Below, in pieces: positions 43,601 to 47,182 of a DNA stretch of 47,182 bases (positions within the stretch are counted from its first letter, which is position 1; the number at the start of each line of letters is the position of its first letter). Below the pieces are notes generated by a model. The model did not search any database, was not told the DNA's origin, and saw only the letters and a program-made list of their open reading frames with translations. This DNA comes from Sulfurovum sp. (GTDB lineage Bacteria > Campylobacterota > Campylobacteria > Campylobacterales > Sulfurovaceae), in the NCBI GenBank assembly GCA_027049035.1, contig JALTVI010000093.1, positions 1 to 47,182 of the forward strand. The letters run 5' to 3'. The position numbers and the translations under genes are program-made.

Positions 43601-43706
43601 CGAGTTTGCTGAGGAGAACAAAGAGCGTGTGGTGCTGAAAGCTGCTTCCAAAGATGACGATGATATCATTGCTGCAGCGATGGGATATCTCAAAGGGAAG
43701 CGATGA
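40677..43706 (+). CDS. mfd: Transcription-repair coupling factor Mfd
   Basis: A 1009-residue translocase that removes stalled RNA polymerase and recruits UvrA. UvrB-like N-part, RID with DYVVHENHGVGIFKGIE, Walker A SADVGFGKTEVAM, DEEH box, MSATPIPRSLNMAL, and HQLRGRVGRGGKEGYCYF. Insert at about 463-477, SREQGEGSSEERE, comes from a heptamer tract. AGGAAAG precedes the ATG. The TGA overlaps the next gene (ATGA). Confidence 0.95.
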   Translation: MITQSNIYEYLEAGAQNPLLICADDKEAKQAADVANLLGYETFVLPDIRVSVGEDMRPYTEELQLFFAQLFGFYRAGEKRLLVAPLHTVLLPFPKPELYDELNIEFGETLPLAELKEKLYRWGYHFTDIAAQRGEVSFRGDIIDIFPVKSDKPYRISLFDEEVESIHHYDETTQKREGEELEGFSVTPAFLALSAEEYEALKNRCERSGYDTFVKDIDSLGLWHLEGLAQSAFDVAKGVLCRNLDEELQEIYELDTPLVERKAFLLPTVPEASRYRDLEVADPNKLLEAHKEKQITVLARNESIVRGSQLHSFENITFVYQDGIVNLMGDDKLILSLNKPIKRKKVKKASIILDELKPGDYVVHENHGVGIFKGIEKREVLGATSEFVTIMYQNEDTLLIPVSNLEVIDRYVAEGGALPVLDRMGKASFKKLKGKVKEKLFAIASQIINLSAQRHLKKGIVLWSREQGEGSSEERELAAKIAAEHQLFMAKAGFVHTEDQERAIYEMLADMQSGRMMDRLLSADVGFGKTEVAMNGMFVAVKNGYQAMMIAPTTLLTSQHYKSLKERFYEWDIKVAKLDRFTGTKEKNAILKGLEEGSIDVVVGTHALLKAKFKNLALVVIDEEHKFGVKQKEALKEMSIDTHLLSMSATPIPRSLNMALSQVKSFSEILTPPVERQGVRTFVKSYDEKVIKEAILRELRRGGQIFYVFNSIAGIEEKKKQLLEILPKLRIAVLHSKISAKETEDEMMKFEDGEYDVLLSTSIVESGIHMPHANTMIVDGADSFGIADLHQLRGRVGRGGKEGYCYFMVTDKERLTDNARRRLLALESHSDLGSGAVLAFHDLEIRGGGNIIGEAQSGHIKQIGYSLYLRMLEDAIRELSGQSKEVTRQVDMKLAVQAYLSEELIEEDRLRLELYRRLAQCESVGEVYEIESEIADRFGKPDTVTRQFIDVMVMKVLAREQGIVKVSSYGENVFIEFAEENKERVVLKAASKDDDDIIAAAMGYLKGKR
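42062..42103. repeat. Heptamer tract within mfd
   Basis: ATGGAGC, AGGGAGC, AGGGAGA, AGGGAGC, AGTGAGG, AGAGAGA: six units in frame. Confidence 0.85.
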
Positions 43707-44446
43707 TCGACTTTAAGACACTTTATGAAAAGACCAAAGGCTGTTCCCTGTTGTTGGTGGAAGACTACGAGCCTTTGCGAGCCGATATGGCTGAAGTGCT
43801 GGAGGATTTTTTTGCTACCGTAACAGTCGCCTCCAACGGAGTGGAAGCGATAGGCCTGTACGACAAGCACTACAAAGAAGCACAGCGATACTACGATGTA
43901 GTGATTACCGATATACAGATGCCCATGATGGACGGTATCGACCTTGCCGAAGAGATCCGAAAACGCAATCCGAAGCAGCAGCTCATCGTACTCTCAGCCT
44001 ATACTGACAGTGAATATCTGATACGGCTGATCAACATCGGTATTGCACAGTTTATCAACAAGCCTGTAGAACAGGATGAATTGGTGGAAGCGCTTTTTGT
44101 AGTTTGCAACAACAGAGCAGGGAGTGAAACGGATAGAGAAGAAGAGACTATTGTTAGATTGGGTGAAGAGGTAGTCTGGCATAAAAAAAGCAATATTCTT
44201 CGAAAAGAGGGCTACCCTGTCCCCCTTACCCGGCACGAGAGTGTGTTGATGCAGCTTTTCGTTGAGCGTGCCAATCAGGTATGTACGGCCGATACGATTA
44301 TGCAGCACTTTTACCTTCAGGGTGTAGAGTTGAGTGAACGAAGCATTCGAAACCTTGTTTCAAAATTGCGAAAAAAACTGCCAGCCAGGGCGATTAAAAG
44401 TATCTACGGCATGGGATACAGGCTTGTGCCGCTTCAGGCGTCCTGA
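43703..44446 (+). CDS. OmpR-type response regulator
   Basis: A 247-residue regulator. Receiver domain about 14-130 with LLLVEDYEP and phosphoacceptor Asp70 in VVITDIQMPMMDG, Lys in NKPVEQ; C-terminal winged helix about 165-245 (LTRHESVLMQLF, IRNLVSKLRKKL, IKSIYGMGYRL). It overlaps mfd by 4 nt, and its stop overlaps the convergent histidine kinase stop by 13 nt. The kinase is its probable partner. Target genes are not known; the adhesin operon is 1.2 kb away. Confidence 0.92.
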   Translation: MIDFKTLYEKTKGCSLLLVEDYEPLRADMAEVLEDFFATVTVASNGVEAIGLYDKHYKEAQRYYDVVITDIQMPMMDGIDLAEEIRKRNPKQQLIVLSAYTDSEYLIRLINIGIAQFINKPVEQDELVEALFVVCNNRAGSETDREEETIVRLGEEVVWHKKSNILRKEGYPVPLTRHESVLMQLFVERANQVCTADTIMQHFYLQGVELSERSIRNLVSKLRKKLPARAIKSIYGMGYRLVPLQAS

Positions 44447-45468
44447 CCGGGATTGAAAAGCAGTTCGAAACAGACGCCGTTATGCCTGTTGTATGCTTTG
44501 AGTGTACCGCTGTGGTGATTCTCCATAATCAGCTGTGACATATAGAGTCCCAGTCCTGTTCCCAGTTTCCCTTTTGTACTGAAGTAGGGTTCAAAGATCT
44601 TTGGCAGAATCTCTTCGGGTACACCTCCGCCATTGTCGCAGATGAGGATGACATACTGCTTCCCTCGTGCAAAGGTTACGATGTGTATCTGCCGTTCATG
44701 CAACTTTTTTTCCGTAAAGTTATCTTCACTGTTTTTGAAAATATTGAGAATGACCTGGGTCACTTCGTTGTCGTACATCTGCAATTGCGGATCTGCTTTG
44801 TACTCTTTGATGACTTTGATACCGTTTTTGCTGAGAGATTGCCCAATAATCTCCAGTGCATTCTCAATGGGGATGCTGAGGTTGGTAACTGTTTTTTCTT
44901 TGTTGGGGTTGAAAAAGTTTCTGAAGTCGTCGGTGGTATGGGAGAGTGTATTGACATACTCGATAACGCTGTTGAGTTTCCGGTCGAGATAGGAGAGGAA
45001 TATCTTTTGCTCGGTCGGAGAGTTGAGATTGAATCTTCCGCTTTCGAGCTTTATTCTGATTCCCATAATGGTGGTGGTGATGGCTCCCAGTGGCTGCCGC
45101 CACTGGTGTGAGATCATACTGAGCATCTCTCCCATGGCTGCCATGCGCTGCCGCTGCAGCAGCAGTTCATCTTTTTGCCGTATCTCGTCGAGTTGGCGTT
45201 GCACCTGCTCTTTGAGTTGACGGTTGTACTGACGTATCAGAATATAGCCGATAGCAATTACGGCACCAAGAAGAAGAAAAAGTAGAAACAACTGCCATGC
45301 TCTGTTGTGGTTATCGAAAAAACGGTCATGTTCAGTTGCTTTTGAATGTTCTGCTTTTTCAGACTTGCCCCCGATATGCGAGAGAGAGGTCTGGCTATTG
45401 GGTATGGCGGCATACAACAGTGCTGCCAACAATACCCATATAACAAGCGTTTTTTTTAAAAAATCCAT
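44434..45468 (-). CDS. Sensor histidine kinase
   Basis: A 344-residue kinase. Two TM helices (about 5-22 and 58-78) bound a short periplasmic loop of about 35 residues. A coiled-coil is at about 80-110. H-box MISHQWRQPLGAI with His121; N-box QVILNIFKNSEDN; G-boxes CDNGGGVPEE and GTGLGLYMSQLIMENH. The small loop suggests no large ligand domain. Its 3' end meets the regulator on the opposite strand. Confidence 0.93.
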   Translation of the reverse strand: MDFLKKTLVIWVLLAALLYAAIPNSQTSLSHIGGKSEKAEHSKATEHDRFFDNHNRAWQLFLLFLLLGAVIAIGYILIRQYNRQLKEQVQRQLDEIRQKDELLLQRQRMAAMGEMLSMISHQWRQPLGAITTTIMGIRIKLESGRFNLNSPTEQKIFLSYLDRKLNSVIEYVNTLSHTTDDFRNFFNPNKEKTVTNLSIPIENALEIIGQSLSKNGIKVIKEYKADPQLQMYDNEVTQVILNIFKNSEDNFTEKKLHERQIHIVTFARGKQYVILICDNGGGVPEEILPKIFEPYFSTKGKLGTGLGLYMSQLIMENHHSGTLKAYNRHNGVCFELLFNPGQDA

Positions 45469-45528
45469 AAAATTTCAACTTTTGGTGACATTTGGATGAC
45501 ATTTATACACTAAAATACTACTCATGGA

Positions 45529-45558
45529 GTATTGTGTCTATTATCTAGTATACAATAC
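45529..45558 (+). promoter_or_regulatory. Promoter and inverted repeat before the riboswitch
   Basis: -10-like TATACAAT at 45549-45556 puts a start site near 45563, just before the aptamer P1. GTATTGT (45529-45535) and ACAATAC (45552-45558) form a 7-bp inverted repeat overlapping the -10. It may be an operator. The -35 is weak. Confidence 0.45.
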
Positions 45559-45564
45559 CTTTTT

Positions 45565-45640
45565 TGAATATAAGGCCAAACCATTCGCGAGGATGGGACG
45601 GAAAGCCACGGATCTCACGCAGACCGCCGGGTTGCATTCA
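45565..45640 (+). promoter_or_regulatory. Cyclic di-GMP-I (GEMM-I) riboswitch aptamer
   Basis: P1: TGAATATAA (45565-45573) pairs with TTGCATTCA (45632-45640), 8 of 9 pairs. The conserved core GGCCAAACC, a P2 stem CCATTC-GCGA-GGATGG with GNRA loop, then GGGACGGAAAGCCACGG, and P3 (GG-a-UCU / AGACC) with CGCCGGGTTG at the end. This matches the GEMM-I consensus, including the GNRA loop, CAAAGCC-like box (GAAAGCC) and CCGGGTT. Only 33 nt separate it from the ATG at 45674 and no terminator T-run is seen, so it probably acts on translation. It was outside the genes called by length. Confidence 0.88.
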
Positions 45641-45673
45641 GTTAACCAACTTAATGTTTACCAAGGAGCACGA

Positions 45674-46189
45674 ATGAGACCCCTGAAGCATACCCTTGTC
45701 CTATGCTTGGTCAGTTTGAGTATCACTACCCTTTTTGCCAAAGTAGAGCGGTGGGATACTTTTGCCAAAGAGAAAGCCCAAGAGCAGCAAGTATCAACAC
45801 GAACAGCACAGATTGTTATTGTAAGACCGGAAAACGTTTCTGGAAAAGCGATCAACATCTACATTGACGGGGAGTATGTCTCCTCTCTGCTCCCCGGTGC
45901 CTATACCGAAGAGCTTGTCTGTTCGGGCCGCCACCGTGTCAACCTTGCCTACACCAATATCGCCACACGCTACAAAGAGAAGCGTACCGGCGGAGACCTG
46001 ATCGATTTCAAATCGGGTGAAAAAAATGTGTATGCTATTACAAAAGAGAATGGGAAACTGCGCTTCAAACACTATCCGAAACAAGATATTCCAAGCCTTT
46101 TAACGCACTATACGAAGCGCCAGGCCCACACGATTTCACGCCTAAGTAAACGAAAATGCACACAACCTTCTAAAAGTACGAGGAAATAA
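45674..46189 (+). CDS. Small secreted protein upstream of adhesin (OmpA-associated-type N-domain)
   Basis: A 171-residue protein starting after the riboswitch, with AAGGAG 5 nt upstream. Signal peptide MRPLKHTLVLCLVSLSITTLFAK. The central part (VIVRPENVSGKAINIYIDGEYVSS plus GAYTEELVCSGRHRVNLAY) resembles the periplasmic domain of OmpA-like proteins that accompany large T1SS adhesins. No peptidoglycan-binding OmpA domain follows. The C-terminus has a Lys/Arg/Ser-rich end with one Cys. Two nt separate its stop from the adhesin ATG. A longer in-frame reading from 45524 would run through the aptamer and is rejected. Function unsure. Confidence 0.75.
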   Translation: MRPLKHTLVLCLVSLSITTLFAKVERWDTFAKEKAQEQQVSTRTAQIVIVRPENVSGKAINIYIDGEYVSSLLPGAYTEELVCSGRHRVNLAYTNIATRYKEKRTGGDLIDFKSGEKNVYAITKENGKLRFKHYPKQDIPSLLTHYTKRQAHTISRLSKRKCTQPSKSTRK

Positions 46190-46191
46190 GA

Positions 46192-47182
46192 ATGTTAAGA
46201 GAAGTCATTGTCCAAGTCAACGATACCACCAAAACCCTTGCCAGCTACAAGGTAAAACCAGGGCATAAGGCACCTGTACACATTGAAGCACACTCCAATG
46301 TCAACTACAACCTGATCGAAAAAGCGACAGGATATGCGCCTGAGAACATCGCAACCAAGCGTGTCGGAAACGATCTTTACATCGCATTCGAAGGAAGTGA
46401 TGTCAATGCGCCCGACGTCATCATCGATGACTACTATGACCATCTTGCCGAACTGGTCATCGGTAAAGCTGAAAATGGTATGTACTACAACTACGTTCCT
46501 GAAAGTGCAGCCGATGCTGATGCCATCAGTGCTCTCAATGTCGGAGACGCTGCCGGTCAGGCACTTGGGGGAGAAGGCTTCATCACGCCATTCTGGATCT
46601 TTGGTGAAGAGCTTGGATTCTCTGCCATGGAAGCACTCGCAGGCGCAGCCGGTCTCGGTGCCATTGCTGCAGCTGCAGGTGGCGGCGGAGGAGGTGGAGG
46701 AAGCGACACGTCAACACCGCCGCCTTCTGCTCCGCCTCCGCCGACAGCACCGGGCGCACCGACAGTGGAGATCACCGAAGATGGCAACAATGACGGCTAT
46801 ATCAATGCATCAGAGCTCAGCGGCGCTATCGATGTGCGTGTCGGTCTGCCGGCAGATGCGGTAGCCGGAGATACGGTCAGTGTGACAGACGGTACGAATA
46901 CCAACACCATTACACTGACAGCTGCAGACATTACAGCAGGCAGTGTGAACACCACATTCCCGGCCCCTGCAGAGGGCGCGACGATCACTGTCACGGCAAC
47001 TGTGACAGACCAGGCGGGCAACACTTCTCCAAGTGCGAGTGAGAGTGCGGTGCTTGATACGACCACATCGGCAACAGTGGATATCAAAGATGATACCGAC
47101 CATGATGATATGATCAGTACCATCGATGACCAGACCGCCACAAAACTCAGCGGAACGATTGAGGCCGGCGGAACGATCACCA
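46192..47182 (+). CDS. BapA-like repetitive T1SS adhesin, N-terminal part (runs off the window)
   Basis: An open reading frame of 330 codons to the window end with no stop. Residues about 1-100 look like the BapA prefix domain (KPGHKAPVHIEAHSNVNYNL, NDLYIAFEGSD). A hydrophobic Gly/Ala-rich stretch follows (GAAGLGAIAAAAGGGGGGGG), then a Pro-rich hinge, then Ig-like repeats (GAIDVRVGLPADAVAGDTVSV, TATVTDQAGNTSPSAS). These proteins are exported by type I systems, held in the outer membrane, and bind cells to surfaces. No signal peptide, as expected. Start ATG 46192 with AGGAAATAAG. Riboswitch control is likely polycistronic. Confidence 0.85.
   Translation, partial: MLREVIVQVNDTTKTLASYKVKPGHKAPVHIEAHSNVNYNLIEKATGYAPENIATKRVGNDLYIAFEGSDVNAPDVIIDDYYDHLAELVIGKAENGMYYNYVPESAADADAISALNVGDAAGQALGGEGFITPFWIFGEELGFSAMEALAGAAGLGAIAAAAGGGGGGGGSDTSTPPPSAPPPPTAPGAPTVEITEDGNNDGYINASELSGAIDVRVGLPADAVAGDTVSVTDGTNTNTITLTAADITAGSVNTTFPAPAEGATITVTATVTDQAGNTSPSASESAVLDTTTSATVDIKDDTDHDDMISTIDDQTATKLSGTIEAGGTIT

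Follow-up and report, generated by a model that had tools for sequence, protein, structure and literature searches.

The window, the whole stretch of DNA analyzed here, spans bases 1-47,182 of a contig (C72) that is 120,576 bases long and comes from a sulfur-oxidizing Campylobacterota bacterium of the Sulfurovum type. Near its downstream end, a riboswitch aptamer precedes a gene for a small secreted protein and the N-terminal part of a gene for a large T1SS adhesin (Table 1). The adhesin gene starts two bases past the stop codon of the small-protein gene, at 46192, and its repeats match Big_13, Big_9, cadherin-like and Ca_tandemer models. Two scaffold gaps of 100 N each (47183-47282 and 48521-48620) break this gene, and the window ends exactly at the first of them; a frameshifted adhesin was ruled out, because the change of frame falls at a 100-N scaffold gap. 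The adhesin had been described as "BapA-like" in an earlier note made from the letters of the window. However, its N-terminus (46192-46740) matches no Pfam or NCBIfam model at E values up to 10, and the BapA N-domain has been dropped. The export genes for TolC, an ABC transporter and HlyD lie beyond the window; the transporter scores 645 bits against TIGR03375, below the cut-off of 693 for that model. Since the gap of ~92 nt between the adhesin and TolC genes contains a TATAAT, the export genes may have a promoter of their own, outside riboswitch control. A search for plasmid or viral relatives of the adhesin locus yielded none.

Two other observations concern the surroundings. A histidine kinase gene (44434-45468, reverse strand) points away from the promoter region of the riboswitch and adjoins a gene for an OmpR-type response regulator (43703-44446, forward strand); the two might add to the control of the adhesin locus. 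Contig C44 of the same genome, where the search found no riboswitch, encodes another LssB transporter (L337, 65596-67710) that has a higher score.

Table 1. Features of the riboswitch leader and the adhesin locus (positions count from the first base of the window).
Feature	Position	Strand	Basis or remark
Candidate -10 element, TACAAT	45551-45556	+	Sequence; start would fall near 45562-45565, at the foot of P1
c-di-GMP-I (GEMM-I) riboswitch aptamer, complete	45566-45640	+	RF03167, RF01051, model R1
P1	45564-45569 (5' strand) with 45636-45641 (3' strand)	+	5 Watson-Crick pairs and 1 G-U; sequence, folding
G20	45575	+	Contacts one guanine of c-di-GMP in known structure; G in 172 of 173 aptamers
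C21-G46 and C22-G45 pairs	45576-45577 / 45600-45601	+	Within the P2 region, 45576-45601
P2 with GCGA tetraloop	45581-45586 / 45591-45596; loop 45587-45590	+	Model match, alignment
A47	45602	+	Stacks between the ligand guanines in the known class; A in 173 of 173 aptamers
A48	45603	+	A in 173 of 173 aptamers
P3 with bulged G83 (45626) and tetraloop receptor region	45604-45633	+	Model match, alignment
C92	45635	+	Pairs with the second ligand guanine in the known class; C in 169 of 173 aptamers
Candidate expression platform hairpin, GCAUU-C-AGUU[AACC]AACU-U-AAUGU	45634-45657	+	-4.2 kcal/mol
Shine-Dalgarno sequence, AAGGAG	45663-45668	+	5 nt before ATG 45674
Small secreted protein, 171 aa, signal peptide	45674-46189	+	ORF; faint DUF2846 match below cut-off
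Large Ig/cadherin-repeat T1SS adhesin, N-terminal part	46192-47182	+	Continues to contig position 53656
TolC	53748-55028	+	Outside the window, after the adhesin
ABC/LssB	55025-57136	+	Outside the window, after the adhesin
HlyD	57133-58302	+	Outside the window, after the adhesin

When the whole window is searched with cmscan against Rfam 15, one match exceeds its gathering cut-off: 45566-45640 on the forward strand, with 60.3 bits (E = 7e-12) to RF03167, for which the cut-off is 59. The same segment scores 54.1 bits against RF01051 (cut-off 35) and 79.1 bits against R1, a family model built from 30 aptamers of related genomes. The earlier note had placed a c-di-GMP-I riboswitch at 45565-45640 and had proposed an RF01051 score above gathering as a check; both Rfam scores bear out this assignment. 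The GEMM-I segments that it named are found where it put them, GGCCAAACC at 45574-45582, GGGACGGAAAGCC at 45595-45607 and GCCGGGTTG at 45626-45634, as is the GNRA tetraloop on P2 (GCGA, 45587-45590). The interhelical C44-G83 contact is also there (C45599 and G45626), and both of its columns are invariant in the alignment. The description of P1 as a helix of 9 bp with one mismatch has to be corrected, to five Watson-Crick pairs plus one G-U; this P1 is weak and AU-rich.

Covariation in homologous leaders, which had been named as a further check, is found over the pairs of P2 and P3. In a plain MAFFT alignment of 30 sequences, 11 of the 20 pairs have two-sided compensated changes. In an alignment of 83 sequences, which was fitted to the model in a way that favors the score, 97.9% of the cells are paired and 16 of the 20 pairs have two-sided changes; the structure tested consists of P2 and P3, with P1 outside it. 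The covariation score of this alignment is 0.488, which none of 500 shuffles reaches, versus 0.241 in shuffles, and when the partners are slid the score is at most 0.12. The margin is thus large despite the fitting of the alignment to the model.

The aptamer ends 33 nt before the start codon and lies, as had been noted, upstream of the Shine-Dalgarno sequence of a small secreted protein, with AAGGAG at 45663-45668, ATG at 45674 and a signal peptide. The -10 box that had been proposed upstream of the aptamer fares less well, in that no acceptable σ70 -35 partner was found for the TACAAT at 45551-45556; it is still plausible because TATAAT-like hexamers are enriched about twofold at 25-39 nt upstream of G20 among 169 homologous leaders.

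An intrinsic terminator was considered as the platform of the window leader and rejected, since none was detected there; among 171 leaders, terminator-like hairpins occur in 28 by a loose scan made without a shuffled control. Because a terminator is absent, the translational level is the most likely one for an ON switch. The candidate platform hairpin (Table 1) takes up both C92 and the 3' strand of P1 and, by folding, is mutually exclusive with P1. The segment after C92 in the window leader is no more stable than its shuffles (z = -0.1). Taken together, however, 163 leaders show more stable folding than shuffled sequence in the 45 nt that follow C92 (mean z -1.18 +/- 0.12), and the mean z of a control segment is -0.25 +/- 0.09. 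In the folding model, predicted pairing of the AUG drops on binding from 0.65 to 0.08-0.37 for leaders of 120-140 nt, a change in the ON direction; there is no drop for a leader of 159 nt, and the Shine-Dalgarno sequence is not predicted to be freer in the bound model. Sequestration of the start codon by the 5' strand of P3 occurs in the minimum-energy fold, yet its effect varies with leader length, and it was not adopted. In the mechanism that we propose, binding of c-di-GMP to the aptamer would result in formation of P1 and P3, and the bound aptamer would block the rival hairpin downstream, in which C92 and the 3' strand of P1 are otherwise engaged. The start region would then be freed, and adhesin expression would go up at high c-di-GMP (an ON switch). 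We favor ON control of the adhesin, exerted on translation, as the more probable direction.

The window aptamer, while a real GEMM-I element as first claimed, is not a special one, as it is one of 8 class-I aptamers in the genome, 2 of which fall below the RF03167 cut-off. The seven further copies (L001-L005, L007 and L008) are present on contigs C85 and C15, six of them on one 278-kb contig, and the genes that follow encode NlpC/P60-LysM, OMP, TpsB with an FHA-type TPS adhesin, PAS and rhodanese proteins, an unknown secreted protein, and an Ig/cadherin-repeat surface protein with pseudopilins. L008 (1493-1584), which precedes the secreted rhodanese-domain protein, is degenerate, with 42 bits to RF03167 and a P3 rebuilt as a plain hairpin, and is possibly decayed or altered. 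At least one aptamer is present in 34 of 36 other sampled genomes of the genus, up to a maximum of 21 in one genome of ~2.1 Mb; a wider count for the phylum gives RF01051 matches in 43 of 397 genomes, which represent 13 of 68 genera. The copies in the genus are mostly upstream of genes for surface or secreted proteins, PAS or chemosensory proteins. By a crude test, the first downstream gene encodes a hydrophobic N-terminus in 115 of 154 leaders, and the recurrent downstream families are PAS, PilJ-type sensor, NIT, OMP beta-barrel, LysM-NlpC/P60, DUF4382, DUF11, CAP and Ig-like. Several genomes of the genus also contain tandem aptamers, ~90-220 nt apart within single leaders (L022, L025, L041, L100, L101, L106, L108, L120, L135 and L138).

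Relatives of the small protein are present in only two other genomes of the genus, G025 and G036. In G025 the riboswitch is directly upstream of the orthologous small protein; in G036, no recognizable riboswitch was found in the leader of the ortholog of small protein and adhesin. In a further genome, G034, the riboswitch is followed by genes for an OmpA-domain protein, a homologous adhesin and the export proteins. Thus the leader recurs in related genomes, where the earlier note had suggested looking for it. In two genomes of a sister genus, g23 (L334 and L335), a riboswitch also precedes a cluster that encodes TolC, a small protein and a large protein of another kind (>1,200 residues), which we take for a T1SS adhesin. 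By eye, this g23 protein has a LapA-like N-terminus, and its locus is without LapG. Consequently, T1SS adhesin loci of more than one kind begin with the riboswitch in this family.

The residues that contact the ligand can be compared across 173 aptamers collected from the phylum with the model built on 30 aptamers. In Vc2 the ligand-contact residues are G20, A47 and C92 (PMC4744006), to which A48 has been added (PMC3764141). Since G20, A47 and C92 are kept in the window aptamer and in 172, 173 and 169 of the 173 aptamers, respectively, c-di-GMP is the expected ligand, and the contact residues are all consistent with it. The best-scoring Rfam label in the clan is nevertheless RF03167, the "GGC" variant, whose model detects all 8 copies of the genome. 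If the window aptamer belonged to this c-di-GMP-I-GGC class, its ligand might be other than c-di-GMP or, in an alternative form of the same explanation, c-di-GMP might be read in a different way. However, the RF03167 consensus has a G at the A47 position, from which we infer the "GGC" in the name, whereas the window copy has A45602 and every phylum copy an A. The higher score of RF03167 seems to stem from its short P3 rather than from the ligand residues; an altered ligand specificity read from the label was rejected, since A47 is kept in 173 of 173, and we give a ligand other than c-di-GMP very little weight. An A at position 20 is the defining feature of the 3',3'-cGAMP (GEMM-Ib) riboswitch; the window aptamer has G45575 at this position. 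Another deviation, a C-G pair at 21-46 instead of the usual G-C, is found in 171 of the 173 phylum aptamers. Among the matches listed, this swap turns up within the exact motif in many other phyla or classes, including Desulfobacterota and Gammaproteobacteria, so it was rejected as a lineage-specific novelty and counts as an ordinary variant. Just two aptamers, L207 and L209, combine the usual G21-C46 with a long P3, and they belong to order-level relatives outside the family; both are upstream of related proteins without a signal peptide and were perhaps acquired separately.

Other explanations accept the aptamer as such and differ on what it does. The ligand-bound aptamer could lower adhesin expression, as the class-I switches of C. 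difficile are mostly OFF (PMC6200980) and the free-energy model leaves the direction unsettled; adhesion genes, however, are expected to rise with c-di-GMP, the class-I adhesin switches Vc1-gbpA (PMC4744006) and Bc2-cap (PMC4933901) are ON, and no terminator is seen in the window leader, so that an OFF switch is unlikely. It is also conceivable, but distinctly improbable, that the aptamer is real and uncoupled, a relic without effect on the adhesin. Its P1 is AU-rich and weak, the platform is unconvincing in the window leader alone, the G036 ortholog manages without a riboswitch, and L008 in the same genome has visibly degenerated to 42 bits. Yet the contact residues and helices of the window copy are all intact, and G025 and G034 retain the element at equivalent positions. 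Finally, a 221-codon ORF (45524-46189) opens at ATG 45524, crosses the aptamer and continues in frame into the small protein, and were it the true gene, the similarity would lie in coding sequence. Against this, the covariation is that of an RNA structure and extends over leaders whose genes are unrelated; ATG 45674, moreover, has the AAGGAG and starts a signal peptide, the upstream part is an unlikely N-terminus, and we find the longer gene scarcely credible. We consider it highly probable that a class-I c-di-GMP riboswitch heads the mRNA for the small secreted protein and the large T1SS adhesin, where it would probably act as an ON switch, most likely on translation.

LapA-type adhesins respond to c-di-GMP via LapD and LapG (PMC3032545, PMC6890996). 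The T1SS genes of such a system are present here (large repeat adhesin, TolC, LssB-type ABC and HlyD), and the genome encodes 19 GGDEF domains, so c-di-GMP signaling is likely present. In surveys that include some incomplete drafts, LapG (PF06035) was undetected in 48 genomes of the family (40 of the genus and 8 more), and the N-domain of LapD (PF16448) was undetected in 25 genomes of the genus. Elsewhere in the order, several genera do have PF06035 matches, and riboswitches occur in some of these genera too; PF16448 is present in four other genera. A missing profile match still leaves room for an unrelated protease. With LapD and LapG undetected, the riboswitch would be the only recognizable direct c-di-GMP input to the adhesin locus. 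We tentatively suggest, as a possibility somewhat short of even, that in the Sulfurovum family the control of LapA-type adhesins has shifted from LapD/LapG cleavage to the RNA level, with GEMM-I riboswitches at the start of several T1SS adhesin loci as part of an adhesion and sensing regulon of up to ~20 switches per genome.

Campylobacter jejuni and its relatives have been described as almost devoid of metabolite riboswitches (PMC3847290), and C. difficile, with 16 c-di-GMP riboswitches, has been called exceptional (PMC6200980). A free-living Campylobacterota lineage with up to 21 class-I switches in a genome of ~2 Mb is in a C. difficile-like range. In the open-access literature searched, we found no report of c-di-GMP riboswitches in Sulfurovum or Epsilonproteobacteria, nor, in keeping with the earlier note, any description of this arrangement for Campylobacterota adhesins. 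The regulon would also link dozens of unknown surface proteins to c-di-GMP as targets, and at the T1SS adhesin loci the lack of detectable LapD/LapG would allow a clean test of whether mRNA-level sensing alone can set adhesin display.

Compared with known aptamers, the window copy has the fold of the Vc2-type (RF01051), with P1-P2-P3, the GNRA loop, G20/A47/A48/C92 and the C44-G83 contact, and departs from it in the C-G rather than G-C pair at 21-46 and in a short P3. RF03167 gives the highest clan score and has a similarly short P3, but differs from the window aptamer in having G instead of A at position 47. In the LapA/LapD/LapG systems (PMC3032545, PMC6890996), c-di-GMP likewise promotes display of a large T1SS adhesin and the TolC/ABC/HlyD export genes are alike; there, however, the signal acts on protein cleavage, through LapG and LapD, which are undetected in the Sulfurovum family. 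Control of adhesin mRNAs by c-di-GMP riboswitches is itself established. Vc1 of V. cholerae gbpA (PMC4744006) is also a class-I aptamer in the leader of a secreted colonization factor and has the same contact residues, although GbpA is a chitin-binding secreted protein rather than a giant T1SS adhesin and the Vc1 leader is 225 nt. Bc2 of B. thuringiensis cap (PMC4933901) is another class-I switch before a surface adhesin, and is ON, but it acts by a terminator/antiterminator and Cap is a Gram-positive wall protein. In C. difficile, class-II c-di-GMP switches are associated with adhesins (PMC6200980). Vibrio, Bacillus and Clostridioides thus all have adhesin mRNAs with c-di-GMP riboswitches, and what is unusual here is the setting, a T1SS adhesin of the Campylobacterota.
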